Source: Bacteroidota bacterium
Lineage (GTDB): Bacteria > Bacteroidota > Bacteroidia > B-17B0 > Aurantibacillaceae
Assembly: GCA_025363015.1 (NCBI GenBank)
Contig: JANYEQ010000073.1
Coordinates: forward strand, 1 to 57,976
DNA: 57,976 nt
Direction: 5' to 3'
Made by a program: the position numbers and the translations under genes. Positions 14,311-54,566 of the stretch are shown piece after piece. Below the pieces are notes generated by a model. The model saw nothing but the letters and a program-made list of their open reading frames with translations, was not told the origin of the DNA and made no database searches. Numbering within the stretch: the first letter of the stretch is position 1; every line of letters starts with the position of its first letter.

Positions 14311-17300
14311 TTACACCACAATATTCACAATTTTCTTTGGAACAATAATTACTTTTTTAGGCGTTTTACCTTCTAAGTATTTTTGAACGTCTTCGCGTGC
14401 CATTACTTCCTGTTCAATCTGCTGAATAGTATGAGTAGCCGGAAATTCTAACTGCAAACGTGTTTTACCGTTAAACGAAATGGGGTAATTAAAAGTATCA
14501 TCTAACAAATAACTTTCATTACACATCGGAAAGTCTGAAAAGGCAATGCTTTCTGTATGCCCGAGTAAGCTCCAAAGTTCTTCGGTAATGTGCGGTGCAT
14601 AAGGCGATATTAAAATCAATAATGGCTCTAAAATAGCACGCTTGTTGCATTTTAGGTCGGTTAATTCGTTTACACAAATCATAAAATTACTAACGGAAGT
14701 GTTGAACGAGAAGCGCTCAATGTCTTCTGTAATTTTTTTAATAGTTTTGTGTAAAGTTTTTAATTCTGCTTTTGTAGGTTCTGTATCTGTCACGCTGAGC
14801 GGAGTCGAAGCGTCTACACTAGTAGGATAAAATAAACGCCACAATTTTTTTAAGAAACCGCTCACACCTGTAATGCCATTGGTATTCCACGGTTTGCTTT
14901 GCTCTAAGGGACCTAAAAACATTTCGTACAAACGCAAGGTATCTGCACCAAATTTTTCGCAAATATCGTCAGGAGAAACAACATTGTATTTGGATTTGGA
15001 CATTTTTTCTATCTCATGCCCACAAATATATTGTTCATTTTCAAATACAAATTCTGCATCTCTATATTCCTCTCTCCAATTTCTGAATTTTTCAATATTA
15101 AGAATATCATTTTCAACTATATTGACATCAACGTTTATAGGGGTAAAACTGATTGATGTTGTTCTATCAATAATAAAATTCTTAGGCCCTGGTAAAGTTT
15201 TTTCTAATTTGGAGTTAAAATCTTTAAGAAAATCTTCGTCAACATTCGTTGATTTTGTTGCAAGATTTTTTGATACAAAAAGTGGTTTAATACGAGCTCC
15301 AGAATCTGATTTCAAATCATATCTATAAACAAAATTACTTCTTCCCTGTATCATCCCTTGGTTAATCAACTTCTTGGCTGGTTCTTCAATATTAATATAA
15401 CCAAGGTCTTTTAAAAATTTTGTCCAAAAGCGTACATACAACAAATGCCCGGTGGCATGTTCGCTGCCGCCAATGTATAAGTCAACTTGTTGCCAGTAAT
15501 CAGTTAGTTTCTTGTCTGCAAATTGCAAACCATTATGAGCATCCATGTAACGTAAAAAGTACCAGCTGCTGCCAGCCCAACCCGGCATAGTACTTAGTTC
15601 ATATTCGTATTCCTCCTCCGTTGCTTTTGCGCCACCTCCTCCAAAGGAGGATAAAGGGCGGTATCTCCAATCTTTAGCACGTGCTAAAGGTGGTTCGCCA
15701 TCTTCGGTGGGTAAATATTTATCTACTTCGGGTAATATTAAAGGCAGTTCGTTTTCGGGTAATGCATAAGGAATTCCATTTTTATAATAAATGGGAATAG
15801 GCTCACCCCAATAACGTTGGCGACCAAACACGGCATCGCGTAAACGGTAATTTGTTTTGCCTTTGCCAATATTTTTTTTCTCAATTTCTGCAATTGCCTG
15901 TTTAATGGCCGCTTTTACATCTAAGCCATTTAAAAAGTCGGAGTTAATTAATTTTCCTTCTTTAGCGTCATAAGCCGCCTCGACTTCCGTTTCGACTTCG
16001 CTCAACATCCGTTCCGATTTAACTACTTGTAAAATAGGTAAACCAAAGTGTTTTGCGAATTTAAAATCACGCTCATCATGCGCAGGCACTGCCATTACCG
16101 CGCCTGTGCCGTAACCTGCCAATACATAATCTCCTACCCAAATAGGAATTTGTTTTCCGGTAAACGGATGTAAAACATAAGAACCGGTGAATACACCGCT
16201 TACTTTATCAACCTCAGCTTGGCGTTCGCGTTCGCTACGGTTTTTAGAAACAGTTACATATTCTTCTACAGCATTTTTATTTTCGGCTGTTGTTAATGAT
16301 GAAACAAGATTATGTTCCGGTGCAAGCGTTACAAAGGATACTCCAAATACTGTATCAGGACGAGTGGTGAAGACTTCTAAAAAAATTGACGATTGATGAT
16401 TGATGATTGGCAATTGTTGTACTTTGAATTTTAGTGATGTTCCTTCGCTTTTTCCAATCCAATTGCGTTGACTTTCTTTTAAACTTTCGGTCCAATCTAA
16501 GGTATCTAATCCATCCAATAAACGTTGAGCGTAAGCGGTAATGCGCATGCTCCATTGTTTCATTAATTTACGTTCAACGGGATGTCCGCCACGTTCGCTT
16601 ACGCCATCTTTTACCTCATCGTTGGCAAGTACAGTTCCTAAAGCGGGGCACCAGTTAACATAGGCTTCGCCCAAATAAGCCAAACGGTAATTCATTAAAA
16701 TATCCGATTGTTGTTTTTCGGTAAATGCTTTCCAATCTGCCGTCGAAAATTGTTTTGTATCATCATCGCAAACAGCGTTTACATTTGTATTTCCGTTTGC
16801 TTCGAATTCTTTTATTAAAGAAGAAATATCTTCTGCTTTATCTGAATTTTTATTGTACCACGAATTAAATATTTGAATAAAAATCCATTGTGTCCATTTA
16901 TAATATTCAGGGTCTGATGTCCGTACTTCTCTATCCCAATCAAAACTAAAACCAATTTTATCCATTTGTTGGCGGTAACGTGCAATGTTTTCTTCGGTAG
17001 TAATTTTTGGATGTTGCCCTGTTTGTATGGCATATTGTTCGGCTGGTAAACCAAAACTATCATAACCCATAGGGTGCAATACATTAAAGCCTTTGTGGCG
17101 TTTGTAGCGGGCGATAATATCGCTGGCAATGTAGCCTAAGGGATGCCCCACATGTAAACCCGCCCCGCTGGGGTAAGGGAACATATCTAATACATAATAT
17201 TTTGGTTTAGGTTGCCCTTCGACTTCGCTCAGGGTACCGTCGGAAGCCTTAAATGTTTTATGAGCAGCCCAGTTTGCTTGCCATTTTTTTTCTATTTCGG

Positions 17301-17316
17301 TAAAATTGTAGTCCAT
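14311..17316 (-). CDS. leuS: Leucyl-tRNA synthetase with five in-frame repeat insertions
   Basis: LeuRS charges tRNA-Leu. The 1001-residue product has the class I HIGH-type motif [10 protein letters not shown] (about 53-62), the CP1 editing domain ([27 protein letters not shown]), [12 protein letters not shown], and KMSKS in [13 protein letters not shown]. All catalytic motifs look intact. Against the generic family pattern, five stretches look inserted: about residues 25-36 (LSEVEG), 299-312 (INHQSS), 433-447 (LSEVETEVE), 552-572 (SSFGGGG) and 829-842 (STPLSV). Each coincides with a DNA repeat listed separately. The insertions keep frame and lie in what should be surface loops or linkers. 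The ATG at 17316 matches the usual MDYNF N-terminus. Confidence 0.96.
14787..14809 (-). repeat. Palindromic-family repeat inside leuS (copy 3)
   Basis: On the minus strand this contains TTCGACTCCGCTCA followed by GCGTGACAG. TCCGCTCAGCGTGACAG matches the aroA element at 53424-53440 in 16 of 17 bases. The first 14 bases differ by one from copies 1 and 2 in leuS. It is translated as STPLSVT. Confidence 0.8.
15639..15660 (-). repeat. CCTCC/GGAGG inverted repeat inside leuS
   Basis: The plus strand holds CCTCCTCCAAAGGAGG, a short hairpin with CCTCC/GGAGG arms. It encodes the LSSFGGGG stretch, which is not expected in LeuRS. A similar pyrimidine/purine hairpin occurs in non-coding DNA near 35673. 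Confidence 0.55.
15991..16004 (+). repeat. Palindromic-family repeat inside leuS (copy 2)
   Basis: TTCGACTTCGCTCA is identical over 14 bases to copy 1 at 17218-17231 and is translated on the minus strand within [13 protein letters not shown] partial tandem TCGACTTCCG lies immediately before it. Confidence 0.75.
16385..16412 (+). repeat. Heptanucleotide tandem array inside leuS
   Basis: Four consecutive 7-base units read ATTGACG, ATTGATG, ATTGATG and ATTGGCA. The array is translated on the minus strand as the PIINHQSSI stretch just before the conserved FTTRPDT editing motif. Confidence 0.75.
17215..17234 (+). repeat. Palindromic-family repeat inside leuS (copy 1)
   Basis: CCCTTCGACTTCGCTCAGGG has CCCT/AGGG ends and shares 14 bases with copy 2. 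It is translated as the TLSEVEGQ stretch between the N-terminal helix and the [16 protein letters not shown] region. Confidence 0.8.
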
Positions 17317-53240: not shown

Positions 53241-54566
53241 TTATTTGCTATTAATTTTAAAATCTACTTTTTTTAAATCTTCCCAAAACTGCGGATACGA
53301 TTTTGTGACCACTTCAGGGTTTTTAATTTGAATGGAAGGATATTTTAAACACAAAGGCGCAAAAGCCATGGCCATGCGGTGGTCATTGTATGTTTCAATA
53401 TCAATTGTTGATTGCCCTTTAATTCCGCTCAGGGTGACAGGAGTTTTGTCATCTTGAGCGGAATTGAAAGAGGAACTTAATATTTTACTATTTTTTTTGA
53501 TAGTGATAATCGTAATTGAATTATTTGTGATTTGTACCTCTGCACCAAATTTTTCTAACTCATTTTTTAGTGCAATAATTCTATCGGTTTCTTTTACTTT
53601 TAAAGTTTGTAAGCCTGTTAAATTTGCATTTATACCTAAGGCTAAACAAGTAACCGCAATGGTTTGAGCAATATCGGGGCAATTGGTAAAATCGTAATTA
53701 AATTCGGTGATATTAATTTGTTTTTTAGTTAAGAATATATAATCCTTTTTAAACTCGGTATTAACACCTAAACTATTATATAGCTGCGGCAAAACAGAAT
53801 CGGCTTGTAAACTTTTTTCGTTAAAATAATTTAATTTAATACTTGCGTTGGCACTTAGGGCGCAAATGCTGAACCAGTAAGAGGCCGAGGACCAATCAGA
53901 TTCAACACTAATGGAAGATGGAAGATGGAAGATGGAAGGTGGATTATGTTTGATAACAAGTTTTGTATTGCGCTCAATAGCATTTATTTCTACCGCTATC
54001 CCAAACTGTTGCAATAAGGAGATGGTCATTTGGATATAAGGCCACGAAACAATTTTATTATTTATACTTAACTCTAAACCATTTTTAAATGTGTGCGCAA
54101 TTAAAAGTAATGCTGAAATAAATTGACTGCTGATACTTCCATCAATTTCGATGGTGCCGCCCAATAATTCTTTTCCAATAATTTTTAAGGGAGGATAATT
54201 TTGTTTTTCTAAGTAGGTAATATCTGCGCCTAAATTTTTTAAAGCGTTTACTAATTCGCCAATAGGGCGTTGTTTCATACGCTCAGAGCCTGTTAATACC
54301 CACTCGCCTTTTTTACACGAAAGTAATGCGGTTAAAAAACGCATATCAGTACCTGCATGATGAATATTAATTGTTGCCGAGGTTATATTTTCTATTTGTG
54401 CTAAGGCTTCTTGTAAAAGAGCAGTATCTTCGGCATCAGAGATGTTATTTAAATCAATATCCAGTCCTAAAACATGTTTTATAATTAATATTCGGTTGCT
54501 AATACTTTTAGAACCAGATATAGAAATAGTTGCGTTTATATTTTGATTGGCAATTAACGCTATCAT
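53241..54566 (-). CDS. aroA: 3-phosphoshikimate 1-carboxyvinyltransferase (EPSP synthase) with two repeat insertions
   Basis: AroA joins shikimate-3-phosphate and phosphoenolpyruvate in the shikimate pathway. The 441-residue product has SGSKSISNRILII (17-29), HHAGTDMRFLTALLS, LTGSERMKQRPIGELVNAL, GSISSQFISALLLIA, ESDWSSASYW, LKVKETDRI and TYNDHRMAMAFAPL. It is some 30 residues longer than expected. Two stretches look inserted: residues 209-220 (PSIFHLPSSIS), encoded by a heptanucleotide array, and residues 366-383 (SSFNSAQDDKTPVTLSG), encoded by a 19-base inverted repeat. Active-site motifs are intact. Its ATG overlaps the aroB stop by one base. Confidence 0.95.
   Translation of the reverse strand: MIALIANQNINATISISGSKSISNRILIIKHVLGLDIDLNNISDAEDTALLQEALAQIENITSATINIHHAGTDMRFLTALLSCKKGEWVLTGSERMKQRPIGELVNALKNLGADITYLEKQNYPPLKIIGKELLGGTIEIDGSISSQFISALLLIAHTFKNGLELSINNKIVSWPYIQMTISLLQQFGIAVEINAIERNTKLVIKHNPPSIFHLPSSISVESDWSSASYWFSICALSANASIKLNYFNEKSLQADSVLPQLYNSLGVNTEFKKDYIFLTKKQINITEFNYDFTNCPDIAQTIAVTCLALGINANLTGLQTLKVKETDRIIALKNELEKFGAEVQITNNSITIITIKKNSKILSSSFNSAQDDKTPVTLSGIKGQSTIDIETYNDHRMAMAFAPLCLKYPSIQIKNPEVVTKSYPQFWEDLKKVDFKINSK
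53421..53465. repeat. 19-base inverted repeat inside aroA
   Basis: Left arm AATTCCGCTCAGGGTGACA (53421-53439) and right arm TGTCATCTTGAGCGGAATT (53447-53465) pair at 17 of 19 positions around a 7-base loop. The left arm shares TCCGCTCAG-GTGACAG with the leuS element at 14787. It is translated as extra residues in aroA. Confidence 0.85.
53911..53938 (+). repeat. Heptanucleotide tandem array inside aroA
   Basis: Four exact copies of ATGGAAG run in tandem. They are translated on the minus strand as the PSIFHLPSSI insertion immediately before the conserved ESDWSSASYW motif. Confidence 0.85.

Follow-up and report, generated by a model that had tools for sequence, protein, structure and literature searches.

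A dispersed palindromic element in frame in the leucyl-tRNA synthetase gene of a Bacteroidota bacterium

The described repeats closest to the one reported here are the CGTC-tagged REPs, hairpins with an unpaired terminal CGTC, often replaced by TGTC or CCTC, that were reported in Bacteroidetes (Di Nocera, De Gregorio, Rocco 2013, PMC3733652; the account given here follows portions of that paper). Their stems of 8-9 bp enclose a loop of 4-5 and start almost invariably with complementary AT residues. Four families are described, inverted dimers are common, and these portions of the paper state that there are no associated transposase genes. In-frame intragenic REPs are described there for several species, and the REP-bearing genes mentioned include those for DNA polymerase I and tRNA synthetases, the type of REP being unspecified in the passages concerned. 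The intragenic CGTC repeats of R. conorii are RPE-4 and RPE-6, and RPE-1 is a longer palindromic insertion (PMC3733652, same portions). The main text of this paper has no mention of leuS.

The window studied here is the whole stretch of 57,976 nucleotides that was analysed from a Bacteroidota genome (G000; 3,325,576 bases in 143 contigs). Its leucyl-tRNA synthetase (LeuRS) gene, leuS, carries three copies of a small palindrome, hereafter element A. Like the Rickettsia palindromic elements (RPEs), element A is a small palindrome found in frame and translated in conserved genes (leuS, aroA and others). It differs from them by its phylum and by an insert shorter than RPE-1, a comparison with RPEs drawn by description only from the portions of the paper cited above.

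Three copies of element A in leuS

The leuS features are the following (coordinates of the window):
14311..17316, minus strand: leuS, leucyl-tRNA synthetase, 1001 aa, host of three element A copies (ORF, translation, Pfam, PDB homologues)
17215..17234, minus strand: element A copy at site 1, CCCTGAGCGAAGTCGAAGGG, translated within residues 28-34 (alignment, net +21 nt)
15988..16008, minus strand: element A copy at site 2, ATGTTGAGCGAAGTCGAAACG, residues about 437-443 (alignment, net +21 or +12 nt)
14788..14812, plus strand: element A copy at site 3 with full TGTCA tag, TGTCACGCTGAGCGGAGTCGAAGCG, opposite-strand reading ASTPLSVT
15622..15660, minus strand: another insert, residues about 553-565, palindromic CCTCCTTTGGAGG, not element A (sequence comparison)
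16381..16416, minus strand: insertion-prone loop of the CP1 editing domain, residues about 301-312 (DUF559 or element A in some relatives)

The original prediction placed a palindromic repeat at three positions of leuS. These coordinates and the core repeats are correct and all lie inside the 14311..17316 ORF: TTCGACTTCGCTCA is found at 15991-16004 and 17218-17231 (both plus strand) and TTCGACTCCGCTCA at 14796-14809 (minus strand). All three exact copies of the core TTCGACTNCGCTCA in the window are in leuS. The residues coded by the repeats are TLSEVEGQ at positions 28-35 (site 1), positions 435-446 (site 2) and STPLSVT at positions 837-843 (site 3).

Comparisons across species used one genome per species. 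The repeat-coded residues of sites 1 and 2 are present in none of the 29 other rows of the alignment with LeuRS of relatives. At the codon level site 1 spans 84 nt versus 63 nt in nearly all relatives, a clean gain of 21 nt, and an element A insert at this site is found in one out of 81 LeuRS rows, the residues thus not being conserved in Bacteroidota LeuRS. Site 2 has 105 nt. The 12 relatives whose loop is short have 84 nt there (+21), and the 10 whose loop is long have 93 nt (+12); the nearest congeners are among these 10, which leaves the exact inserted unit at this site uncertain. Judged from sequence, the first two sites have gained element A when compared with the orthologues.

Site 3 behaves differently, the same in-frame copy being present in G013 and G011. 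The claim that the repeat residues depart from the LeuRS family pattern holds for the first two sites, with the qualification that the third is common to congeners. Relative to most relatives, site 3 looks like a loop replacement rather than a clean insertion, and G013 is one residue longer there than G001. The G011 gene has a second element A copy nested in the loop of an older, broken copy. The site-3 copy also occurs in one of the two different, overlapping leuS fragments (L115, L116) of the G010 bin, whose contamination is given as 6%. The leuS of G010 on contig C468 lacks the copy, so the fragment that bears it may be foreign to the bin.

The proposal that the repeats are translated as loops, in principle like RPEs, agrees with their in-frame position in leuS and with an AF2 model built for the protein from 45 sequences (mean pLDDT 72.5), in which the three sites are coil. 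For residues 28-34, 305-308, 437-442 and 557-565 the pLDDT is under 50 and there is no secondary structure, and site 3 is coil except for one residue, at moderate confidence. Conserved segments (e.g., 45-59 and 83-107) also have low pLDDT, so that the model, taken alone, lends weak support to the insert sites being harmless surface loops.

Structure, distribution and relatives of element A

The core is far more frequent than expected by chance, both in the window and in the genome, and neither of the conditions that would have refuted the original prediction (residues conserved in most Bacteroidota LeuRS, or a core at chance frequency) was observed. Up to two mismatches being allowed, the window has four matches, versus a mean of 0.27 and a maximum of 2 in 100 shuffles. 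The G000 genome has 22 exact copies of TTCGACTNCGCTCA and none of the reversed pattern; the 16-mer CTGAGCGNAGTCGAAG is found 18 times exactly and 62 times with up to two mismatches, again with no match to its reversed control. The exact 16-mer occurs in 101 of 395 Bacteroidota genomes, versus one reversed-control match across all 395. A genus scan with up to one mismatch detected the 16-mer in 29 of 40 genomes (reversed control: single matches in five genomes), and a 14-mer scan of relatives gave a reversed-control match in one genome. Copies per genome range from 0 to 162, the complete genome G042 having 162 exact copies and G033 having 16; a role as DNA-uptake signal was judged not to fit such copy numbers.

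The unit defined by 136 distinct copies is TGTCA-NNC-TGAGCGNAGTCGAA-GNN, about 25 nt long, and is formed by a tag and a hairpin. Composition is nearly flat beyond positions -8 and +4. Positions -2/+2 are Watson-Crick pairs in 93% of the 136 copies, versus 33% when partners are shuffled (z 16), and positions -3/+3 in 89% versus 37% (z 14). Watson-Crick pairing at -1 to -3 amounts to 89-95%, and the outer pairs use GC, CG, AT and TA alike. The enlarged set of 177 copies gives 93% and 90% for pairs -2/+2 and -3/+3, respectively. The outer stem covaries strongly, among copies that are related and hence not independent. Positions -4/+4 are A-T in 41 of 136 copies, the next position is not AT and the inner pairs would be non-canonical; a GNA-type mini-hairpin with tandem G-A pairs may be one form open to the core. 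For the copies tried, nearest-neighbour folding as DNA or RNA gave results no better than shuffles, so the hairpin structure is deduced from covariation alone. At -8 to -5 the tag is TGTC in 84 copies and CGTC in 19, which makes 103 of 177, a majority but not all; GTCA is present in 106 of the 177 copies and CCTC in none. Element A is often found as inverted pairs, spaced by 38-44 bp in G042 and G006. A single copy adds about 7 residues to a protein and a pair about 20.

The TGTC/CGTC tag on one side, the inverted pairs and the in-frame copies in genes are shared with CGTC REPs, as a short hairpin would be, as portrayed in the portions of PMC3733652 used here, and the lack of Y1_Tnp linkage in 54 loci (see below) matches the statement made there on transposases. 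Element A differs from that description in the outer two or three stem pairs, which vary freely but covary, where the CGTC stems start almost invariably with AT. Element A would belong to the CGTC/TGTC-tagged REP superfamily described in these portions, or be a close sister of it. It seems to be a known kind of element with a new sequence type; a search of the open-licence PMC full text with the core sequences retrieved no related paper, as judged by title, and for palindromic elements in frame in Bacteroidetes the same literature yielded PMC3733652 alone.

GTAG REPs with their RAYTs (REPtrons) are the other system to be considered. Element A shares with them tagged hairpins, often in inverted pairs, and differs by having neither a GTAG tag nor linkage to the Y1 loci examined. 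It might be a REP of the GTAG type that a RAYT (a Y1/HUH transposase) resident in the genome mobilises, as happens in E. coli or Pseudomonas: a hairpin with an unpaired 5′ tag and inverted pairs resembles REPs, and some Y1_Tnp is present in 20 of the 22 A-bearing genomes searched, G000 having one at E ≤ 0.001. However, GTAG is found in none of the 177 copies, and the 54 Y1_Tnp loci examined (172,269 bases; 24 loci from A-rich genomes and 30 that are each genome's best match, some of them A-free) showed no linkage between element A and Y1 transposases. With up to two mismatches allowed, these loci hold one 16-mer match at one mismatch (L347) and one 14-mer at two mismatches (L087). Linkage was read at the 30 of 68 profile matches that have a locus and may occur at others. 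In addition, neither G042 nor G033 has a PF01797 match, and the Y1_Tnp of G000 is flanked by a different palindrome. The absent GTAG, the absence of linkage at the loci examined and a G042 genome with no PF01797 match disfavour a RAYT as the mobiliser of element A, which we hold to be highly improbable. The G000 locus (L023, contig C136) is the only Y1_Tnp above the cut-off in this genome and is flanked by CCGCAGGGTTACAAACCCTGCGG with GCGGGG arms.

Element A in aroA and other genes

The window carries two further, decayed copies in aroA (window 53241-54566; the gene was named by eye and by the original prediction):
53415..53439, minus strand: decayed element A copy 2, TGTCACCCTGAGCGGAATTAAAGGG, translated VTLSGIKG, extra residues before YNDHRMAM
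53447..53470, plus strand: decayed element A copy 1, coding strand CTTTCAATTCCGCTCAAGATGACA, FNSAQDD, inverted relative to copy 2

The 16/17 match to aroA that had been noticed for the third leuS copy is real. It lies at 53424 and is part of one of these two copies, which form an inverted pair in the loop before YNDHRMAM. The compared aroA stretch has 73 residues, versus 48-56 in 24 of 26 aligned relatives (26 of the 29 relatives, the three missed by the motif search being left out), and 75 in G001 and 64 in G021, both with other inserts. This loop is insertion-prone in the genus: low-complexity repeats are found in G001, another insert in G021, and ETRNKKPETRN-type repeats in G005, G018 and G020.

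That element A is a dispersed palindrome residing also in coding DNA, as first proposed, is borne out across G000. From the 62 copies of the 16-mer (up to two mismatches), 27 are in ORFs of at least 200 aa, a tally that omits contig-edge copies (in bioF on C96, in thiD on C138 and, on C74, in a T9SS-like gene) and counts one copy where the N-terminus is in doubt (C108:37213). Their reading frames are LSxVE in 18 cases, AERSRS-like in six and ASTxLS-like in three; the frame in which element A has a TGA cannot be open. Bacterial coding density is usually 85-90%. If that of G000 is near this value, 27 out of 62 is below random placement, which gives no sign of a preference for genes. The exact 16-mers are more often in such ORFs (12 of 18) than the diverged ones (15 of 44; Fisher P 0.025), an excess that decay of the intergenic copies would fit. 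For the 14-mer, 15 of 21 distinct G000 copies are in such ORFs, versus 6 of 30 in relatives (P 0.0004; the relatives' sample holds one or two loci per genome).

Host genes supported by PDB homologues code for DNA polymerase I (polA), ThiD, an esterase-like hydrolase, BioF and IleRS (ileS). Among the matches listed, the best PDB homologues of IleRS and of the esterase-like hydrolase lack the repeat-coded residues. Putative hosts, named by eye, are FtsZ, where the copy sits in a linker region whose length varies anyway, an E2 acyltransferase, an AsmA-like protein, an ABC-F protein, and SPOR and T9SS proteins. Two thiD-like stretches at the starts of contigs C43 and C138 (L142 and L174) both have an in-frame element A. 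They were considered as a possible strain polymorphism; being 93% identical over 632 bases with the element in both, the pair is uninformative on presence or absence. Four loci (L009, L014, L183, L190) code for T9SS-type proteins similar by eye, with element-A-like DNA at matching places, which suggests that these copies may have multiplied together with their genes.

The occurrence of the same DNA in unrelated genes and in intergenic regions bears on the possibility that the repeat residues are ordinary LeuRS family variation, their DNA identity being a coincidence or an effect of codon bias. LeuRS loops do vary in length across the family and the site-3 loop is very variable. This would nevertheless not account for an identical core with covarying flanks and a tag, nor for 22 copies versus 0 in the control. 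Ordinary variation is refuted for sites 1 and 2 on the basis of these sequence comparisons, and the probability that we leave to it overall is close to negligible.

Recurrent insertions in LeuRS loops

Among LeuRS genes of Bacteroidota (the best 80 of 418 named loci, all from MAGs), element A with up to one mismatch is inside the ORF in seven: L256, L258 (three copies), L259, L260, L264 (two copies), L266 and L301. The copies are in the CP1 loop, at site 2 or at site 3. The presence of three copies in one leuS, first seen as striking, is real but not unique, as L258 also has three. The site-2 loop is used in L258, L259, L260, L264 and L266; in L259 and L264 five residues are added there, so that the gain departs from a clean 21 nt. 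L256 and L301 seem to come from the genomes G013 and G011. Fitch counts on an 87-tip LeuRS tree, with gains and losses pooled, give five changes for element A at site 2, two at site 3, two in the CP1 loop and five for DUF559.

leuS is over-represented among the exact 14-mer copies of 41 genomes, at least 6 of 343 versus about 0.27 expected for genomes assumed to be of 3.8 Mb; in these multi-genome scans the leuS copies in genomes beyond the matches listed were taken from the leuS loci scanned. Without G000 there are 3 of 321 versus 0.25 expected (P about 0.002), one of the three being the doubtful G010 fragment.

Other sequences occupy the same loops. The inserts at residues about 301-312 and 553-565 were absent from the original prediction; the latter is common to G018 and G006 and absent in G020. 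Inspection by eye found SPSGGG- and SPLQGGAQG-type inserts at site 3 and PSPxGE-type inserts at sites 1 and 2 and in CP1. In L261 and L262 the CP1 loop holds yet another repeat family, an inverted dimer with a GTCA tag that lies in frame and codes for HPELVSGSQEMLKQVQHD. Judging from these comparisons, LeuRS loops are repeatedly invaded by several repeat families in different Bacteroidota lineages.

A further insert is a DUF559 (PF04480) nuclease domain, found in the leuS frame of at least six of 41 genomes; the regular expression applied to the 80 LeuRS loci would miss divergent domains. It is in the CP1 loop of G006, G007, G010, G029 and G037 (loci L113, L114, L115, L121 and L387) and in the residue-555 loop of G038 (L388). 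Pfam confirmed two of these inserts (E 8e-37 and 5e-35), the scan of the two returning only DUF559 and a related nuclease model, and no intein. The five CP1 cassettes (146-168 residues) have inverted hairpin repeats at both borders, the typical form being GCCTCATCCC..CCCTTCTCCAAAGGAGAAGGG with the inverse at the other end. Their left end is GCCTC in all five and their right end TGAGGC in three, with a variant in G010 and G037. Of 49 DUF559 matches, 13 are in open frames of more than 500 aa without stops; outside LeuRS, long ORFs with the domain correspond by eye to HsdR (L194), RecJ (L218), MetH (L195, L196), a SpoIIE-type phosphatase (L390) and a CoA-transferase (L391). The one DUF559 match of G000 (L392, contig C64) is broken by three stops. 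No paper related to DUF559 together with leucyl-tRNA synthetase or with palindromic or mobile elements was found among the matches listed from the open-licence PMC literature, as judged by title and start of abstract. We tentatively put forward, with somewhat more doubt than belief, that the DUF559 gene between inverted hairpins could be a second, apparently undescribed and putatively mobile element, of which solo hairpins would be non-autonomous derivatives moved by DUF559.

Our main reading concerns element A itself. With a probability of about 0.77, element A is a REP-like hairpin with the 14-bp core in its middle; it is dispersed, is copied in trans or by replication, and its in-gene survivors are near-neutral loop spacers. 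A trans-acting enzyme or a replication-linked process would produce the copies and place them at many positions of the chromosome; the analysis found no mobilising enzyme. Insertions within genes would survive only if their net length is a multiple of three and the frame is open, LSxVE most often; the surviving target would be a surface loop or a linker in which the insert acts as a near-neutral spacer. A variable but complementary outer stem might mean that pairing is maintained, or regenerated for each copy, e.g., by hairpin-templated correction. The over-representation of LeuRS would be due to its length and to its several loops that tolerate insertions.

The multiple LeuRS copies could instead reflect targeting of leuS, through a site preference of the element or of its enzyme, rather than tolerance. 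The over-representation of leuS and the use of the same loops in separate branches (the Fitch changes for element A at site 2 and in CP1, and for DUF559) would agree with this, and in the congeners G019 and G009 the codons at site 2 resemble CTGAGC or TTGAGC, a possible microhomology. Against targeting, unrelated repeat families and low-complexity inserts occupy the same loops, orientation and frame vary between the LeuRS copies, and most G000 copies are in other genes or intergenic. We consider targeting unlikely, and retain tolerance of near-neutral spacers as the preferred reading.

Small palindromes in frame in essential enzymes, best known from Rickettsia, thus also occur in uncultured Bacteroidota. 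For annotation this is a warning that stretches coded by repeats (e.g., LSxVEG or HPELVSGS) do not represent conserved domains. The surprising parts are that LeuRS loops are used recurrently and that a nuclease cassette lies in frame. The recurrent insertions provide a natural insertion-tolerance map of an aminoacyl-tRNA synthetase, and a set in which the mobiliser of CGTC-type REPs may be sought. The DUF559 cassettes, if our tentative view of them is true, would be selfish nuclease genes hiding as protein domains inside an essential enzyme and, if mobile, a new way for old proteins to acquire new domains.
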